This document shows positions 16,006-24,225 of a stretch of DNA of 64,000 bases, in pieces. This DNA comes from Bacteriovorax sp. MedPE-SWde (lineage in GTDB: Bacteria > Bdellovibrionota > Bacteriovoracia > Bacteriovoracales > Bacteriovoracaceae), in the NCBI GenBank assembly GCA_001874305.1, contig MPCU01000011.1:62001-126000 (forward strand), written 5' to 3'. Position numbers and translations under genes: made by a program. The notes beneath the pieces are model-generated. The model had not been told where the DNA came from. It did not search any database and saw nothing but the letters and a program-made list of their open reading frames with translations. Numbering within the stretch: the first letter of the stretch is position 1; each line of letters begins with the position of its first letter.

Positions 16006-16036
16006 AAAGGCCTTATTTCTAAGGCCTTTATCTTTT
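16006..16036. terminator. bidirectional intrinsic terminator
   Basis: AAAGGCCTTA (16006-16015) and TAAGGCCTTT (16020-16029) form a perfect 10-bp stem with loop TTTC, followed by ATCTTTT on the plus strand and a run of T on the minus strand (TTTTTTAATTC). It ends both the response regulator and the convergent 1565-residue gene. Confidence 0.85.
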
Positions 16037-19000
16037 ATAATTTTGTTATAGCTCTAACTCTATTTACCCCGCCATCTGGATGGGAAATAACACGAATAGC
16101 ACTAATCTCTCTTTCTTCATCAATCTTAAAGAATTTCGACTTTCCTGCGTATCCTTTAATTCCTCTGCGTTGAATAAGGTTCTCCCACTCACCATTGATT
16201 TGTGCGAAGACTTCTAACTCCAAAGGGTTATTATTAACGAAGAAAGTAAAATCAAATTCTAAGCGATTTAAAACTGAAGGCTTTCCTAGCCCCAGAACAA
16301 CTTCATCATAGTGTCCGGCCTCACGACTTCTTGCAGACTCTAGACCATCGAACATACTGATTGGTGGATACGGAGAGATAACTTGTATTGCTGGCCCATA
16401 GTGCTCATTTGAAGAAGAAATAATTCTACCTCCATAAAGAGCAGATGCAACATCATATTCTTCCCCAGAAGCTAATCTCTTTTTTTGAAGCTCAACTTGC
16501 TCCTCAGTAGTAGTGAAATCTATATGCATAGGTTTTAGTGTATGAGGGATTTCCTCACTAAATGCAACACTACCTGCCTTTGAGAGCTCCATATAATTCT
16601 TTACTTCATCACTAGGAAGATCATCACCGTATAGAGAAACTCGACTCAGTCCCCCATCAGGAAAAATAGATATCTTAATTTTAGAAATATCATTGAACTC
16701 ACTATCAAGTTTTATTCTCTTTTGAGAATGTCCATCTATATCAGTTTTAGATAGAATGTCTACCCACTCTGACTTTGTTTCTTTATAACCGTCAATACTT
16801 ACAAATGGTGCATGATTCCCAAAATGATACATTGTCGATAAACAGATATACCTTGGGGAAACTGACTCTTCTAAACTTAAAATCAGTACATCACTTTCTT
16901 CTAGGTTGTGACGAACAGACTCCCAGCTATCCATAATTTTTCCCTGCTCCCCAAAGAGTTCAGGATCAAAGACAGGAAGATATTTAGAAAAAATATTTTC
17001 AGCTCTAGCAAATTTTTGATTTGTAACACTCTCTACTTTAGCTCCCTTTAGAAGGTTAAATTCATAAAGAGGATCAAGAGGACCATGGTCAATGATTTCT
17101 TCAGGTACAGTCGCTTCAAATGCATTAAAGACTAGATTCTTGTAACCAAAATTAACCAGTTCCTCAAAAGGAACATTCTTAGTATCAACTTCAGCAAGAA
17201 ACTTAGAGTAATCAACTCCTGAAAACTTTAAGCCCTTTAATAATAGTTGTGAAATTTTTGAAAGAAGAAGCACTCCTTTCTGATCACCATTACAAGCAAG
17301 AGAGAAACCCTTACCTACGTCAGGACCAGCAAAACAATGAACATAGATACTTCTAAATCCATCATTTGCACCTTGATGAATCGCCAGTTTATTTAACCCT
17401 GCTTCAGCTATGAAAACACCAAGCCCCATAAAAGCGCCCATAAACTCTTGGCAACCTCTATCAGTTCCTAATAGCATTGAAACTGCTGTATCCTGAGAAA
17501 GACCTCCACTTCCACCATCATAAGAGTAGGCCTTAGTTAAGTGATTTAAGAATACTGTCACATCATGAGTTGTAGACATTGCCCCAGCAGCAAATGCCGG
17601 AAACATCTTACGTGTTCCCTCGACGACTTTGCCATCATCAAGAAACCCATGAGCGTATTTTTTCCCTTCAAGCGTTGACTGCTCAAAAGTAAAGTTGCTC
17701 ATTTCAAGCTTTTTAAAGAAGTCACCTGATAACTCTTGAACCTTTTTCCCAGAGATCATATTAATTAAATACTCTAGGACAATAAACCCAGCACCAGAGT
17801 AACTAAACTTTGTTCCCGGTTTATTCTTTACCGCTATCGCTTCATAACCATATTCATCATTTCCTTCTAAGAACTCTGAAATATCAGGCATATTACGATC
17901 AGCAGGCACACCATTTACATAGTGCATATTTAAAGCATTGTGTGACATGAGATGAGCAAGGTTAACCTCATCTGTCGATAGTCTAAAAGTAGACTTTGTT
18001 TCTGCCAGTAGTTTATTAACAGAAGTCTCAAGAGGAATTCCTCTCTCTTTAAAAAACTCTATTGCAAAAGCACTTCCCATAGTTTTACTAAGTGAAGCAA
18101 TTTCAAAGAGAGAATTCTCACAGGCGATAACGCCCTCTGACAACTCACCAAAAGAAAGAGATTGAATTTTATCAATTCCACTAGAAATAGACACTGAACA
18201 CCCTGAGATGTTCAGCTCATTTAGAATATCATTTACTTTTTTTTTTATTTCATCAAGAGGATGTGCATCTAATCTCTTCTTCGTGATTTCAAGTAGAGCA
18301 ACTCTAGCATTGTTTAATTCTTCATCCATTGAATTCTCAATACGAGATTTCAAGATAGATAGCATTTCTGTGCCAGACTTACCTTTAGCACTCACAAGAA
18401 ACTTCATACCAAACTTTGAGAGATAACTAGCTCCAAGGCTTTTTAGTTCATCAGTTATAGCTTGATCTTCATCAAAGACCTTGGCCTGCTCCGCCTGCGC
18501 CATTTGATCAAGAGTCTTCTTACTCTCTCCAATATTTCCATGAAAGTAAGCTGAGTCTAGAATATCTTGTTTATTAAAGTTCATCACCAAATCATCGACT
18601 TGTGCAGTATCTGTAATTGCCGAATTTGCCATAGATTTAGCAAAACCTAGACTTCCACACATTTCAAAGAAGTGATTAAATCTTTCTGTATATAAATCAA
18701 GACTATACTTCTTAGGATTGATTTCATTTAGAACGGCCCAAGGGTCACTTGCGCTTCTCACTGACTCTATTCCAAAAGGTAGTAGTAGTTCTGTTGCAAA
18801 TTCAACAGGATTCTTATCAGTCATTAACTTAATCATTAGTTTAAGAGCAATTGGATACCACTTTTCAGTTCTCTCATCCCACTTAACTTGAACAATCTTC
18901 TTTTCATCTGAAAGATCCTTTCTAATAAAGTGCATTTCTTCATGTGCAATTTTAAAGAACTCCTCAATTGAGAATCGACCATGATAAATTTCGTGCCAAA

Positions 19001-20732
19001 CTTCCCAACGGGATCTCTCAGCTGTCGCCAAGTCATCCATCACTCTTACCGCGTGACCGCCAACAAGTGCAGGAAGGGCAACACAGCCGTTTCCACTAAG
19101 CCAGTCAGTAATATACTGAAGTGATTGAAAGACATTATAGCGAACTTCAATTGGATCATTATTTCGGATATAAGCTGATTCTTTGATATCTGCAACAATT
19201 AGAGATCTATCATATAACTCATCTTCGTAATCAAGACCTTTGATATCCTCTCCATTTATAAAAGAGAATATTTCTTCATGATACTGAACTTGTAAGAGTG
19301 ACTTTACGAGCTCATCAAAGTTTTCTCTTTTACCGTCTTTAAGTTGCTTCCAACCTTCGACTAAGGCCATCCCAATTCTCATAAAGTCAGGGTGAGCAAC
19401 CCAGAAACCGTCAAGGTTTCTCTTCATCTGAGTGACAACGTCTTTAATAAACCCAAAAATCGAAACTTGAAAAGATTCGCTATGGATATCATTAGTAATT
19501 GGAAGTATTCCATACATACCACCAATCTTAATTCCACCTCTTGGACCAACAACATCTGCCAGTAGCTGATGTGACCCCTTAATATAATTAATTACGATAT
19601 CAGGATCGGCCTTTACAGGAATTCTATAATTAGGGTCTTCTTTAAATAACCTCGCAGTTGAACCTAAGTAGTCATGCCACCCAAGAGATGCACCTGCAAA
19701 GTAAGGATAAAGTTCATCCATTAATTCATTAACTCTAAATACAGCTCTTGGATTTTCAAGAACTATCAGAAGTCGAATCGTACCCATTTCATATTCAGGG
19801 TGAAGTTCTTTAATCATCTCTTCAGATGTCTTCATCATATTCTTTATATATCTAGCTTCCTCTTCATTTTCTAATTTAGGAACATAGAAAGTGAGAGCTT
19901 TTGGGTTATGCCAGTTCTTAAATAGGTGAAGAGCAAAATCATAAAGGTGCAGAGGAAGAGGGTTTCCTCTGTAGAATAGAAATGAACAAGGTAGAGCTAA
20001 CCCAGGAAATCTCTTAATTGGTTGAGATAGTTTTTCATCATTTAGTTCATAGACTTTGTTTCTCTTTTCATCCACAACTCTTAATGTTCCGTCAAAACAT
20101 TCAGTAAGGTTCTGTCCGGCAGCTGCAAGATCTTTTCTTAGAGGAGTCTTAGAGTCTTCATCATCAGCTCCCCACTTAGGAACACTTTCATGAGTTTCAA
20201 GAAGTTTACCTACAATTGCAGGCTCATCTTTTAGCGCACGATGAAATGCGTTCATAGCATTTATTGATAACTTAGCACTTTCTGGAGGTCCAAAGAGAGT
20301 AATATGATTACCCTCAAGGTGTTCAGGTATCTTAGCAACTTTAGTTTCTGTTGCATGATAGTAGTCTTTTTTCAAAGGACCAACGACTATTCTTCCCTTA
20401 GCGTCTTCAAGTCCTAAGACCGTCTTATAATCCGTTGTAGTGAACTCATTCTTAGCAGTCTCATTGAATTCATAGCAGGCCTTAACTCGCTTATCTATAA
20501 ACTCACGATCCGTAATTCTTTGCTCTAGAACATCTCCAAGCTCACCCTTAATTTTGTCATAGAGGTCACAAAGAAACTTTAAAGATTCAGTATTTTCTAA
20601 ACCTCCACCACTTCCTACTTCAACAAGGTCATCGATACCTTTATATGTTGAGCCTTCGGCCAAGAGATAGTCTCTTAGTTCTTTTGAAATATAGTCTTGG
20701 TAATATGGTATTTCTATTCTTGATTTGCTCAT
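16035..20732 (-). CDS. four-domain fusion: malate-synthase-like / OHCU decarboxylase / serine hydrolase (beta-lactamase fold) / allantoicase
   Basis: One unbroken 1565-residue frame with four enzyme regions. (1) About 20-620, malate-synthase-like: VPKLENEEEA, metal-ligand Glu326 in VLENPRAVF, Asp354 in GWHDYLGS, DGFWVAHPD (441-449), and the catalytic-base region GNGC...MDDLATAE (547-571); the usual ADFED segment is missing. (2) About 670-822, OHCU decarboxylase: His731, EQA (748-750), then YLSKFGMKFLVSAKGK. (3) About 825-1170, serine beta-lactamase fold: SLSK (Ser880, Lys883), YSG (978-980), HQG (1119-1121). (4) About 1235-1565, allantoicase, with both repeats: MDSWES...FPDGGLSRVSLYG and FDGLESARS...HPDGGVNRV. 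It would act in the cytoplasm: OHCU to S-allantoin, an unassigned hydrolysis, allantoate to ureidoglycolate plus urea, and glyoxylate plus acetyl-CoA to malate. It is the last gene of the puuD operon, 5 bases after the HIU hydrolase stop. Domain calls 2 and 4 are strong, 1 and 3 good; the role of 3 is inference. Confidence 0.88.
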   Translation of the reverse strand: MSKSRIEIPYYQDYISKELRDYLLAEGSTYKGIDDLVEVGSGGGLENTESLKFLCDLYDKIKGELGDVLEQRITDREFIDKRVKACYEFNETAKNEFTTTDYKTVLGLEDAKGRIVVGPLKKDYYHATETKVAKIPEHLEGNHITLFGPPESAKLSINAMNAFHRALKDEPAIVGKLLETHESVPKWGADDEDSKTPLRKDLAAAGQNLTECFDGTLRVVDEKRNKVYELNDEKLSQPIKRFPGLALPCSFLFYRGNPLPLHLYDFALHLFKNWHNPKALTFYVPKLENEEEARYIKNMMKTSEEMIKELHPEYEMGTIRLLIVLENPRAVFRVNELMDELYPYFAGASLGWHDYLGSTARLFKEDPNYRIPVKADPDIVINYIKGSHQLLADVVGPRGGIKIGGMYGILPITNDIHSESFQVSIFGFIKDVVTQMKRNLDGFWVAHPDFMRIGMALVEGWKQLKDGKRENFDELVKSLLQVQYHEEIFSFINGEDIKGLDYEDELYDRSLIVADIKESAYIRNNDPIEVRYNVFQSLQYITDWLSGNGCVALPALVGGHAVRVMDDLATAERSRWEVWHEIYHGRFSIEEFFKIAHEEMHFIRKDLSDEKKIVQVKWDERTEKWYPIALKLMIKLMTDKNPVEFATELLLPFGIESVRSASDPWAVLNEINPKKYSLDLYTERFNHFFEMCGSLGFAKSMANSAITDTAQVDDLVMNFNKQDILDSAYFHGNIGESKKTLDQMAQAEQAKVFDEDQAITDELKSLGASYLSKFGMKFLVSAKGKSGTEMLSILKSRIENSMDEELNNARVALLEITKKRLDAHPLDEIKKKVNDILNELNISGCSVSISSGIDKIQSLSFGELSEGVIACENSLFEIASLSKTMGSAFAIEFFKERGIPLETSVNKLLAETKSTFRLSTDEVNLAHLMSHNALNMHYVNGVPADRNMPDISEFLEGNDEYGYEAIAVKNKPGTKFSYSGAGFIVLEYLINMISGKKVQELSGDFFKKLEMSNFTFEQSTLEGKKYAHGFLDDGKVVEGTRKMFPAFAAGAMSTTHDVTVFLNHLTKAYSYDGGSGGLSQDTAVSMLLGTDRGCQEFMGAFMGLGVFIAEAGLNKLAIHQGANDGFRSIYVHCFAGPDVGKGFSLACNGDQKGVLLLSKISQLLLKGLKFSGVDYSKFLAEVDTKNVPFEELVNFGYKNLVFNAFEATVPEEIIDHGPLDPLYEFNLLKGAKVESVTNQKFARAENIFSKYLPVFDPELFGEQGKIMDSWESVRHNLEESDVLILSLEESVSPRYICLSTMYHFGNHAPFVSIDGYKETKSEWVDILSKTDIDGHSQKRIKLDSEFNDISKIKISIFPDGGLSRVSLYGDDLPSDEVKNYMELSKAGSVAFSEEIPHTLKPMHIDFTTTEEQVELQKKRLASGEEYDVASALYGGRIISSSNEHYGPAIQVISPYPPISMFDGLESARSREAGHYDEVVLGLGKPSVLNRLEFDFTFFVNNNPLELEVFAQINGEWENLIQRRGIKGYAGKSKFFKIDEEREISAIRVISHPDGGVNRVRAITKL

Positions 20733-20737
20733 TATCT

Positions 20738-21061
20738 CTAGCTTCCTCTATAAGTTGTGTAGCCAAAAGGGTTTAGAAGTAAAGGTACATGGTACTTTCT
20801 ATTTGTATCAGTTATATTAAAAATAATTGGGACTGTGACAAAGAAGAACTCTTGCTTATTCTTTGCGTAGTACTCCTCTATTTCAAAATCAAGTCGATAA
20901 ACACCTGCCTCATAGGCACAATCATAAACGATTCTCCCATCATCATTCGTTCTATCTACGCCAATATCTGTCCAAGTATCTCCAGTTTGTTTTTGAAGTT
21001 TTACTTCTACTCCACTTGCTGGATTTCCTAAATGTGTATCTAATATATGTGTACTGATCAT
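20738..21061 (-). CDS. uraH: 5-hydroxyisourate hydrolase (transthyretin-like)
   Basis: A 107-residue HIU hydrolase. It has the N-terminal STHILDTHLGNPA motif with catalytic His and the C-terminal YRGS signature, with an Arg in the middle (DRTNDDGR). It converts 5-hydroxyisourate to OHCU, the step after urate oxidation. It lacks a signal peptide, so it acts in the cytoplasm. A good Shine-Dalgarno (AGAGGTAAAT) precedes the ATG. It lies 9 bases downstream of puuD and 5 bases upstream of the gene for the OHCU decarboxylase fusion, so three consecutive steps are encoded in order. Confidence 0.95.
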   Translation of the reverse strand: MISTHILDTHLGNPASGVEVKLQKQTGDTWTDIGVDRTNDDGRIVYDCAYEAGVYRLDFEIEEYYAKNKQEFFFVTVPIIFNITDTNRKYHVPLLLNPFGYTTYRGS

Positions 21062-21070
21062 ATTTACCTC

Positions 21071-22738
21071 TTATAGTTTTTTAAATGTAAAATCTAAGTT
21101 TGGAAGCTTTCCTTCACCTAGAGTAAAAGTCTTAGTTTGTGTCCCAAGAGACTCATGCCATACTTCAACTGTGTAATCTCCATGAGGAAGGTCTTTTATT
21201 TTAAATTCTCCCTTACTATTAGAAATACTGAAGAATGGGTGATCTAAAATTGCGACATAGGCACCCATCCAAGGGTGAACACTACACTTGGCCTGTAAGA
21301 AAAGCTCAGGTTTCTTAAAAGTTCTAACTAGTCTTTGGTTCTTTCTAGGCATCGCTGCATTGAATTTCTTATTTACTTTAGTGATCGACTTAACGTTATG
21401 AAAGATTGGATCACTATTGATGAATGTAACCTTTTGACCAACTCTTGCACCTACTACTCGTGGAGAATAGATACAACCCTTTTGATCTAGTTCTACCTCG
21501 GCCTTAGGGATATCACTAAATGTTCTACCTTCGAGTCCTTTAGTTATCCTAACAAGTACATTTTTTAATTTACCTGAATTTACGATGATCTCATTTGAGT
21601 AAACATCACCCTTGTGTTGTTTTGCACATGCTCTTGGAAGTCTTAACTTCTTTCCTTTTGGAGCAACACCATCAAATTTAATTACTCCAAAAAGAGTTGA
21701 AGTCTTTTCATCAATCGCAGCAACCACAGCTGCTTTAGTTTCAACAACCTCTTTAACAATTTCTGTTTCGACAACCTTCTTTTCTTCAACTACATGTGTT
21801 TCATGATCTGCAACCACTCCCTCATCACTTTGAGAGTCAGTTGAAACAACGATAGTTAAAAGTAATAGAACAAAACCAAGAACAGCAAACTTATTTGCTC
21901 TGCCCTTATTCTGTACTCTTACAACAAAGTATTCTCTTACAGCTGCACCAGATGCACTAATCATAAGAAGAACTAACCAATTAAGTTCATGACCATATGT
22001 CGCAGGAAAATGATTACTCAACATGATGAAAATTACTGGTAGTGTAAAATATGTATTATGAGTTGATCTATTCTTTGCATTCTTCGCCCATTCTTTATTA
22101 ACAGGCGTTCCAGATTTAGAAGCTTCAACCATCTTCTCTTGTCTTGGAATAATTCTCATAAATACGTTAGCAGTCATCCAAGTCCCTAACATACCACCAA
22201 TATGAATATAGGCCGCTCTACCACTAAGAGTCTTACATAGGATATAAGACATCCCAACAAACCAAGCTAAAGTTAAAATATGACCAATGATTGGCTTTTC
22301 TCTTGTCAGCTTTCTTTCCCAAAGAAAGTCATAGAAGAACCATGATCCTATTAGAGAAAAGAGCCCAAGCATGACACCTTGAACATAAGTTAAGTCAGAC
22401 ACTGATGAATCAAGTAAGAATGTTCCACCACCTGTATAAAAGATCATCCCAACAAGAAAAGTACCACTCATCCATGTCCAATATGACTCCCACTTAAACC
22501 AGTGAAGACTCTCCGGAACTTTTGTCGGTCCCATGAGCATTTTTTCTACGTGATAGAATCCACCACCATGAACCATCCACAACTCACCGACATGACCATC
22601 TCTTTGAGACTGCTCATTAACTTCCAATGTTCTATCAAGCCACATAAAAAATATAGATGTCCCAATCCAAGTTACTGCCACTGTAATGTGAACCCAACGT
22701 CCTAATAGCAATACCCAATCAAACAATTCTTGACTCAC
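21071..22738 (-). CDS. puuD: PuuD-type membrane urate hydroxylase with C-terminal cupredoxin domain
   Basis: I place the start at GTG 22738 because AGGAG lies 5 bases upstream; the longer frame to 22825 (TTG) has no Shine-Dalgarno. The 555-residue protein has a PuuD-like membrane part (1-300) with about eight helices and conserved segments GRWVHITVAVTWIG, HGGGFYHVEKM and SNHFPATYGHE. PuuD oxidises urate to 5-hydroxyisourate and normally ends in a cytochrome c domain. Here no CxxCH occurs. Instead, after a Val/Glu/Lys-rich linker (about 305-340) comes a cupredoxin-like domain (about 345-501) with the type 1 copper set His447 (FHNV), Cys485, His488 and Met491 (CSVHPWM), then a short beta-sandwich tail. 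Copper would carry the electrons instead of haem. It is first in the operon with uraH and the four-domain fusion, and divergent from a purine permease. Confidence 0.88.
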   Translation of the reverse strand: MSQELFDWVLLLGRWVHITVAVTWIGTSIFFMWLDRTLEVNEQSQRDGHVGELWMVHGGGFYHVEKMLMGPTKVPESLHWFKWESYWTWMSGTFLVGMIFYTGGGTFLLDSSVSDLTYVQGVMLGLFSLIGSWFFYDFLWERKLTREKPIIGHILTLAWFVGMSYILCKTLSGRAAYIHIGGMLGTWMTANVFMRIIPRQEKMVEASKSGTPVNKEWAKNAKNRSTHNTYFTLPVIFIMLSNHFPATYGHELNWLVLLMISASGAAVREYFVVRVQNKGRANKFAVLGFVLLLLTIVVSTDSQSDEGVVADHETHVVEEKKVVETEIVKEVVETKAAVVAAIDEKTSTLFGVIKFDGVAPKGKKLRLPRACAKQHKGDVYSNEIIVNSGKLKNVLVRITKGLEGRTFSDIPKAEVELDQKGCIYSPRVVGARVGQKVTFINSDPIFHNVKSITKVNKKFNAAMPRKNQRLVRTFKKPELFLQAKCSVHPWMGAYVAILDHPFFSISNSKGEFKIKDLPHGDYTVEVWHESLGTQTKTFTLGEGKLPNLDFTFKKL

Positions 22739-22869
22739 GTAAACTCCTCTTAATTCAATATTATGAAACGTGATATTAAACCATATTGGCAAAGGGCCTG
22801 CCAACTGAGAACTGTTCATATTCAATGCGCGCTTTGCACAAATCCCATAAATTTAATGTGATTTTTAGT

Positions 22870-22898
22870 TTTACAATTAAATAACTAATCTTGATAAT
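22870..22898 (+). promoter_or_regulatory. sigma-70-type promoter of the purine permease
   Basis: TTTACA (22870-22875) and GATAAT (22893-22898) are separated by exactly 17 bases, 5 of 6 consensus in each box. The predicted transcript start near 22905 leaves a short leader with a good GGGGA Shine-Dalgarno. It lies in the 188-base gap between divergent permease and puuD. I see no obvious operator palindrome or riboswitch there. Confidence 0.6.
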
Positions 22899-22926
22899 TA
22901 ACATGACTAATACTTGGGGAAAAATG

Positions 22927-24225
22927 ATGGAAAACTTCTTTAAACTTAAAGAAAATAACACGACGCTAAAGACTGAGGTCATTGCGGGGCTTACAACATT
23001 TTTGGCCACTGCATACATCATTGTCGTTAACCCATCGATCCTTTCAATTGCAGGTCTGTCCTATAGTGGAGTTTTAACTGCAACTATACTTGTTAGTTTC
23101 TTCTCAACTCTTGCTATGGGTCTATACGCAAAGAACCCAATCGTGCTTGCGCCAGGTATGGGCATAAATGCATTCTTTACCTTTAGTGTAGTTAAAGGAA
23201 TGGGTATCGCTCCCGAGGTTGCACTAGGAGCTATATTTTGGTCAGGAATTATCTTCTTTATCATGAGTATCTTTAATATAAGAGTTCTGCTTTCAAAAGC
23301 AATTCCAACAAACTTAAGATATTCAATTTCATGTGGGATAGGTCTCTTTATAACACTTATTGGACTAGTAAATGCAGGAGTCATTGTTAAACACCCTGCA
23401 ACCTTGATTACTAGTGGTGGTTTTAGTCATAGTGTATGGATATTCTTTTTAGGCCTACTACTCACTTCATTTCTCTTTTTTAAAAAAGTAAATGGAGCTC
23501 TACTTCTAGGTATTGCTGCTACAGCACTAATGTCATTTACAATAAAGCTTCCACCACAATTTCTAAACATCACAAGTGCAAGTAGCTACTTCTCTATACC
23601 AGATTTCTCGCTCATTGGAATTCTTGATATTAAGAACTCTATTGGATTAGGAATGGCGCATGTTGTTTTCAGTCTCGTCTTCACAGATCTCTTTGATAGT
23701 CTTTCTACATTTGTTGCAGTCAGTGAGGCAGGAAACTTAAAGGATGAAAATGGAGATCCAAAAAATTTAAAGAAGTCATTACTAGTGGACTCTTTTGCGA
23801 CTCTTATATCAGGATTCTTTGGAACAAGCTCTGCAACTAGTTATATTGAATCGGCAGCAGGTATTGAACAAGGAGGTCGAACGGGATTAGTTGCAGTTGT
23901 TTGTGCGACACTATTTCTTCCATTTCTCTTTCTCTCACCTCTACTTTCAATGCTGACACCTCTAGCAACAGCACCTGCTCTTGTGCTCGTTGGCTTTCTC
24001 ATGATGAGCTCTGTTTCAAAGATTGATTTTAGCGACATTTCAGAAGGTGTTCCGGCATTTCTCAGTATGATACTTATTCCTCTAAGCTACTCAATTAGCC
24101 AAGGAATAATCTGGGGTTTCCTCTCTTATACAATTTTAAAAGTTCTAACGGGAAAGGCAAAAGAGATTCATGTTGGTCTCTATATTGTCGACGCTCTCTG
24201 CTTAATGTCTATCTTCTTAAAGTAG
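22927..24225 (+). CDS. NCS2 (AzgA-type) purine permease
   Basis: A 432-residue membrane transporter with about 12-14 helices. The start MENFFKLKENNTTLKTEVIAGLTTFLATAYIIVVNP is nearly the AzgA-family consensus opening, and APGMGINAFF, IYSISCGIGLFI-like and GTSSATSYIESAAGI segments are typical of the hypoxanthine/guanine/adenine NCS2 branch. It would import purine bases by proton symport. Divergent from puuD, it links uptake to urate breakdown, although urate is not the usual AzgA substrate. I chose the ATG at 22927 (family start, Shine-Dalgarno GGGGA 7-8 bases upstream). Its 3' end overlaps the convergent peptidase gene by 9 bases. Confidence 0.88.
   Translation: MENFFKLKENNTTLKTEVIAGLTTFLATAYIIVVNPSILSIAGLSYSGVLTATILVSFFSTLAMGLYAKNPIVLAPGMGINAFFTFSVVKGMGIAPEVALGAIFWSGIIFFIMSIFNIRVLLSKAIPTNLRYSISCGIGLFITLIGLVNAGVIVKHPATLITSGGFSHSVWIFFLGLLLTSFLFFKKVNGALLLGIAATALMSFTIKLPPQFLNITSASSYFSIPDFSLIGILDIKNSIGLGMAHVVFSLVFTDLFDSLSTFVAVSEAGNLKDENGDPKNLKKSLLVDSFATLISGFFGTSSATSYIESAAGIEQGGRTGLVAVVCATLFLPFLFLSPLLSMLTPLATAPALVLVGFLMMSSVSKIDFSDISEGVPAFLSMILIPLSYSISQGIIWGFLSYTILKVLTGKAKEIHVGLYIVDALCLMSIFLK

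Follow-up and report, generated by a model that had tools for sequence, protein, structure and literature searches.

The window analyzed here, a 64,000-nucleotide stretch of the Bacteriovorax sp. MedPE-SWde contig MPCU01000011.1 (positions 62,001 to 126,000), carries on its minus strand a single uninterrupted frame of 1,565 codons. The plus strand across the same interval (window:16035-20732) contains many stops, and the chance that a random chain of the same base composition would stay open for 1,565 codons is ~4e-50. The encoded protein joins a malate synthase-like (MS) part, an OHCU decarboxylase domain, an SxxK serine hydrolase (SH) domain, and an allantoicase (ALC) domain, and all four regions scored above their Pfam gathering thresholds. 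The domains are divergent, and none reached an NCBIfam equivalog cutoff. A sequence-only reading had described an unbroken 1,565-codon frame with these four enzyme regions. The open frame and the Pfam matches agree with it, OHCU decarboxylase and allantoicase included, and the residue ranges that it gave were right to within about 20 to 40 residues.

Genes for 5-hydroxyisourate (HIU) hydrolase and a PuuD-type urate oxidase lie directly upstream of the fusion gene (Table 1), and judging by gene order, the three genes form a tight urate operon. At a locus of Planctomycetota (L121), the fusion has genes for uricase, HIU hydrolase, and xanthine dehydrogenase as its neighbors; the planctomycete fusion therefore also sits within a full purine route. 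The sequence-only reading had assigned the frame to urate and allantoin breakdown and had called it a near-complete catabolic line; the neighboring genes in both phyla bear out the former, and the four enzyme regions together with this urate context support the latter.

Table 1. Features of the fusion gene and its surroundings (window coordinates; residue numbers are those of the fusion protein)
Feature	Position	Strand	Basis or remark
Four-domain fusion MS-OHCU-SH-ALC, 1,565 aa	16035..20732	-	Open frame and Pfam; homologues in Bdellovibrionota and Planctomycetota
Malate synthase A-like part, residues 1-655	18768..20732	-	Pfam and alignment with 3cuz
OHCU decarboxylase domain, residues 656-824	18261..18767	-	Pfam; H731 and E748-Q749 conserved
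SH domain, beta-lactamase/DD-peptidase fold, residues 826-1170, proposed allantoinase	17223..18257	-	Pfam, AlphaFold2, Foldseek
S880-L-S-K883 nucleophile/base motif	18084..18095	-	Invariant
Y978-S-G980 motif, YxN position of beta-lactamases/DD-peptidases	17793..17801	-	Invariant; common to unfused serine hydrolases
H1119-Q-G1121 motif, KTG/HTG position, start of HQGANDGFR	17370..17378	-	H1119 and G1121 in 53/53
Allantoicase domain, two repeats, residues 1230-1565	16038..17045	-	Pfam, 1sg3 alignment, tree
HIU hydrolase gene	20738..21061	-	TIGR02962, 129.2 bits (cutoff, 87.45); 5 bases upstream of fusion
PuuD-type membrane urate oxidase	21071..22825	-	PF06181, E = 1.7e-104; 9 bases from HIU hydrolase gene
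Xanthine/uracil-family permease, divergent	22891..24225	+	PF00860
Terminator-like hairpin and T-run just past fusion stop codon	16006..16029	-	Consensus match only

A carboxypeptidase-regulatory-like stretch lies in the C-terminal part of the window urate oxidase, as does a region (458-524) that weakly resembles amicyanin/cupredoxin. PuuD has been described with a cytochrome c in its C-terminal part (PMC4562309), whereas the window protein has the cupredoxin-like match in its place, and its electron acceptor may differ from that of PuuD. About 4 kb past the 3′ end of the fusion gene, the plus strand (window:10086-11729) encodes a 547-aa adenosine deaminase-like protein (PF00962, 36.5 bits), possibly another purine gene.

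Conservation and origin of the fusion

Of 291 genomes from the phylum, 42 have an essentially full-length fusion in one frame; they belong to several families, and the proteins show 48 to 72% identity. Searching named genomes with the SH domain yielded 80 loci, from Bacteriovoracaceae, Halobacteriovorax, Bdellovibrionales, Oligoflexia, and about a dozen Planctomycetota. In every locus, SH was joined to at least one other fusion domain, and normally all four were present. Domain boundaries and order are constant among the fusions. An alignment of 41 fusion proteins contains 391 near-invariant positions. Eighteen catalytic or motif residues selected for comparison show no variation among the 53 fusion proteins checked, which represent two phyla and include 12 proteins outside that alignment: R241, E326, D354, and D567 in the MS part; H731, E748, and Q749 in the OHCU decarboxylase domain; and S880, K883, Y978-S-G980, H1119, G1121, H931, H937, N1123, and R1127 in SH. 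The chain from the OHCU decarboxylase domain to the C-terminal end was modeled by AlphaFold2 with a pLDDT of 90.9 and a pTM of 0.88.

We give virtually no credence to the idea that four neighboring genes were merged by an assembly or frame artifact. The frame is broken in a few relatives, once each and at differing places (L075 in G190, L076 in G170, L135, and L149); these are metagenome assemblies, and the breaks are either sequencing errors or real splits. Against an artifact stands the recurrence of the same unbroken frame in the 42 phylum genomes, which are independent assemblies, and in Planctomycetota, together with the constant domain boundaries and order. The same recurrence extends the domain order of the sequence-only reading to other Bdellovibrionota and led us to reject an assembly join, which that reading had named as a way for its claim to fail.

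The allantoicase tree also speaks against an artifact: domains from fusions group in a single clade (support, 100), separate from that of the unfused domains (100). Within the fusions, the Planctomycetota form one clade (99). This topology makes it probable that the fusion arose once and then moved between phyla. One record titled Chitinophaga pinensis (L124) carries a planctomycete-type fusion that is nested among the Planctomycetota in this tree, and it is probably a mislabeled bin.

Domains and active-site motifs

In the N-terminal part, Pfam (PF01274/PF20659) matched MS_TIM-barrel at residues 242 to 458 (E = 1.3e-21) and MS_C at residues 529 to 648 (1.6e-10). In the alignment, the four invariant residues R241, E326, D354, and D567 fall on malate synthase active-site positions, where we take them to be the metal site (Arg/Glu/Asp) and the catalytic Asp, so that TIM barrel, C-terminal domain, metal site, and catalytic residue are all present. 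These features are shared with Escherichia coli malate synthase A (3cuz), but the fusion part is divergent, has a longer N-terminal part, and is joined to other enzymes. It scored 137.7 bits against the MSA profile (cutoff, 594.5), and the GRWDY of MSA is GWHDY in the fusion. Many fusion genomes carry a second malate synthase-like gene.

The next domain matched OHCU_decarbox (PF09349) at residues 710 to 822 (E = 2e-18; 67.8 bits against a gathering score of 24) and has the invariant His and Glu-Gln motif (H731, E748-Q749) of the family; its scores fell below the stricter NCBIfam equivalog cutoffs. At the C-terminal end, both repeats of Allantoicase (PF03561) were recognized, the best at residues 1230 to 1370 (1.9e-43; 148.3 bits against 27), which places the domain in that family, and yeast allantoicase (1sg3) could be aligned over both repeats. 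Against the NCBIfam equivalog, the domain scored 159.6 bits, under the cutoff of 277.9.

SH matched Beta-lactamase (serine; PF00144) at residues 839 to 1150 (E = 4.1e-20; 72.6 bits against 27), and it carries the SxxK, Tyr, and H-x-G motifs of PF00144-like hydrolases on a beta-lactamase fold. Foldseek grouped its confident AlphaFold2 model (pLDDT, 94.7; pTM, 0.93) with the R61 DD-peptidase (3pte; TM, 0.76), LACTB, and class C beta-lactamases. SH shares fold and motifs with this superfamily but is only about 20% identical to it, has Gly for the Asn of YxN (YSG), possesses fusion-specific Y938 and R1127, and lies within a chain of urate enzymes. Its score against the NCBIfam class C beta-lactamase model was 48.2 bits, far below the cutoff of 415. 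One planctomycete has HHG for HQG, and some planctomycete fusions also show changes elsewhere in SH at positions that are otherwise nearly invariant (e.g., N935 and Q1120). Related unfused hydrolases have the SxxK, YSG, PAAG, and HxG motifs in common with SH but differ at Y938, V939, and R1127, making these three residues candidates for determining specificity.

High-scoring SH domains (300 bits or more when full length) occurred only inside this fusion, and no standalone SH gene was found in urate clusters in the named-genome scan or in the planctomycete order described below. Of four distant planctomycete matches (112 to 122 bits), three are separate hydrolases outside urate clusters, and the fourth lies in a region without a clear frame. 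The invariant catalytic residues disfavor SH as inert filler.

Alternation of the fusion with AllB-type operons

AllB was scored as a TIGR03178 match above 357.85 bits and PuuE as a TIGR03212 match above 424.6 bits. Urate degraders of the phylum that lack the fusion encode PuuD, AllB, allantoicase, OHCU decarboxylase, HIU hydrolase, and usually DUF6986 in split operons, while fusion-set genomes have PuuD, HIU hydrolase, and MS-OHCU-SH-ALC without AllB or PuuE. Both sets serve the same pathway with the same intermediates. They differ in that the split enzymes are encoded by separate genes and their allantoicases form a distinct clade from the fused ones; metal-dependent AllB takes the place of SH, and DUF6986 or AllA (the latter in G031, G131, and G192) that of the MS part.

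Among the 291 genomes, SH was found in 50 and AllB above the cutoff in 22, with two more partial AllB genes at contig ends; a single genome (G262) had both. This exclusion gave a Fisher P value of 2.9e-18 among urate-degrading genomes, uncorrected for kinship, and a P value of 0.09 over all 291 genomes, which is uninformative because most of them lack the urate pathway. An rpoB tree of 53 genomes contained about eight changes of SH/AllB state and seven independent pairs; AllB was opposite to SH in 6 to 7 of the seven pairs and changed in the same direction in none (median P = 0.0156). Even sister genomes of one genus can differ in state (G131/G172 and G183/G195). In a planctomycete order (301 genomes), 15 genomes had the fusion and 13 had AllB, with no overlap.

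AllB above the cutoff was absent from all 30 genomes of a second set of further fusion genomes, many of them planctomycete. No PuuE above its cutoff turned up in the 74 urate genomes or in these 30, and PuuE was rejected as a replacement for AllB. In the window genome, no protein exceeded the TIGR03178 cutoff, and the fusion protein did not match the AllB profile. The best AllB-like protein there is a dihydroorotase (613 bits against its own cutoff of 482), which disposes of a hidden AllB.

The one genome with both enzymes, G262, is an exception that counts against the replacement of AllB by SH. It encodes an AllB-OHCU decarboxylase fusion (617 aa; L071:9877-11730), two stand-alone fusion-type MS parts, and, at a contig edge, an SH-allantoicase fragment beside a class V aminotransferase; the MS parts and the fragment lie at L046:2-5752 and L047:699-2828. 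The fragment has HHA in place of HQG, and its allantoicase part has changed at 10 of the 61 positions that are near-invariant in the fusions. One partial gene though it is, it fits a lost need for SH where AllB is present; the fragment and the stand-alone MS parts are perhaps a decaying or re-split system. Another same-pathway fusion, PuuD-AllB (875 aa), is found in G189 (L070:1338-3965).

The swap indicates that, by gene content, the split set and the fusion set are interchangeable in urate degraders of the phylum. AllB is lost with the split operon as a block. Its absence is therefore part of the swap and alone no proof that SH takes its step; that assignment comes from comparing the contents of the two sets.

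A predicted serine-type allantoinase in urate breakdown

Urate is degraded through HIU, OHCU, (S)-allantoin, allantoate, and ureidoglycolate to glyoxylate. The window operon covers steps 1, 2, 3, and 5 and a glyoxylate sink; a known allantoinase (step 4) is missing, and SH lies between the step 3 and step 5 domains. The layout PuuD, HIU hydrolase, (MS), OHCU decarboxylase, SH, ALC follows pathway order 1-2-3-4-5. When the two sets are compared, OHCU decarboxylase and allantoicase are common to both, the fusion set has a classical enzyme for the step of every split-set enzyme except AllB, and every fusion domain except SH has a counterpart. Because of this elimination of the other parts and the pathway-ordered layout, SH is most likely an allantoinase, of a third, non-homologous class that would use serine rather than metal chemistry. 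The sequence-only reading had given the serine hydrolase no step in the pathway. With SH as the predicted step 4, the chain would lack no step between OHCU and ureidoglycolate and would also dispose of glyoxylate.

In the proposed scheme, PuuD would convert urate to HIU and HIU hydrolase would convert HIU to OHCU, from which the OHCU decarboxylase domain would produce (S)-allantoin. SH would open the hydantoin ring, turning allantoin into allantoate: Ser880, activated by the base Lys883, would attack the C4 carbonyl, the C4-N3 bond would break, and the resulting acyl-enzyme of allantoate would be released by water. The allantoicase domain would yield urea and ureidoglycolate, the latter would break down to glyoxylate, and the MS domain would combine glyoxylate with acetyl-CoA to form malate. 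Channeling of intermediates by the fusion is a conjecture.

We consider it quite unlikely that SH has some other job (structural spacer, regulator, or esterase/peptidase) and that allantoin is opened by an unrecognized enzyme elsewhere in the genome. The allantoinase search covered the AllB and PuuE families only, and planctomycete fusion genomes can carry a D-hydantoinase that might act weakly on allantoin. However, several few-contig fusion genomes (e.g., G211, G226, and G234) contain a single weak AllB-like match (115 to 126 bits), the catalytic Ser, Lys, Tyr, and His are identical in the 53 proteins of two phyla, as would not be expected of an inert spacer, and the domain order puts SH at step 4.

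It seems very improbable that the substrate of SH is not allantoin but ureidoglycolate or some other late intermediate. Such a role would account for the absence of the ureidoglycolate lyase AllA (PF04115) from all fusion genomes searched, but most split-operon genomes also lack AllA and yet keep AllB without SH; loss of AllA therefore does not call for SH, whereas loss of AllB does. Some allantoicases also act on ureidoglycolate. Since AllA was not found in the fusion genomes searched, the ureidoglycolate step there is left to such a side activity or to spontaneous decay. Ureidoglycolate is known to decay spontaneously to glyoxylate and urea (PMC3793230), a further reason why SH need not act on it.

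The sink at the end of the route could also be read differently. AllB-type urate operons are the only setting of DUF6986 (PF22484), which lies at L054:10137-11477 and in 16 further split operons and is missing from the split genomes with AllA (G031, G131, and G192). It may be a glyoxylate or ureidoglycolate enzyme of the split operons; our literature search returned no paper on it. Like DUF6986, the N-terminal part of the fusion may in practice not be a malate synthase and may handle ureidoglycolate or another glyoxylate adduct. This distribution of DUF6986, the divergence of the N-terminal part from MSA, and the other malate synthase-like gene of many fusion genomes favor such a role, but we regard it as unlikely: the four positions aligned with the active site are invariant, and in the allantoin route of yeast, glyoxylate is known to be removed by a malate synthase, DAL7 (PMC3646786). 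A function other than malate synthase would be compatible with SH as an allantoinase.

Taken together, the gene and domain content suggests that the fusion is a single-chain multienzyme for lower urate breakdown with SH as its predicted allantoinase, which we judge to be likely. We also think it probable that SH founds a third independent allantoinase class (metal-free Ser-Lys, beta-lactamase/DD-peptidase fold), found only in a four-enzyme OHCU-to-malate chain that arose once, has been repeatedly exchanged with the AllB set in Bdellovibrionota, and occurs in Planctomycetota as well. SH would share its proposed reaction, (S)-allantoin to allantoate, with AllB (a cyclic amidohydrolase) and PuuE (polysaccharide deacetylase fold), but it is unrelated to either in its serine beta-lactamase/DD-peptidase fold and SxxK nucleophile. 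To our knowledge, no serine hydrolase allantoinase is known. Among open-licence papers, we found none on the four-part fusion, which the sequence-only reading likewise did not know as described, or on a serine-type allantoinase. PuuE itself provides a precedent, since genomic reasoning led to its discovery as a non-homologous allantoinase (Ramazzina et al. 2008 JBC, as cited in PMC6983136).

Consecutive enzymes of one pathway are joined in one chain elsewhere, as in the OHCU decarboxylase-HIU hydrolase fusion of plants and in arom-type multienzyme chains. Cryptococcus has an allantoicase-ureidoglycolate hydrolase fusion (PMC3646786). None of these chains contains a malate synthase or a serine hydrolase, however, and none spans OHCU to malate. 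As a natural single-chain system, the fusion lends itself to asking whether OHCU, which is unstable, and glyoxylate, which is toxic, are channeled, and it could serve as a compact enzyme for sensing allantoin or in preparations that degrade urate. If SH is an allantoinase, a fold of cell wall and antibiotic enzymes would have been recruited for hydantoin ring opening, a step for which only AllB and PuuE enzymes are known would gain serine (acyl-enzyme) chemistry, and a gap in urate degradation would be closed for two bacterial phyla.
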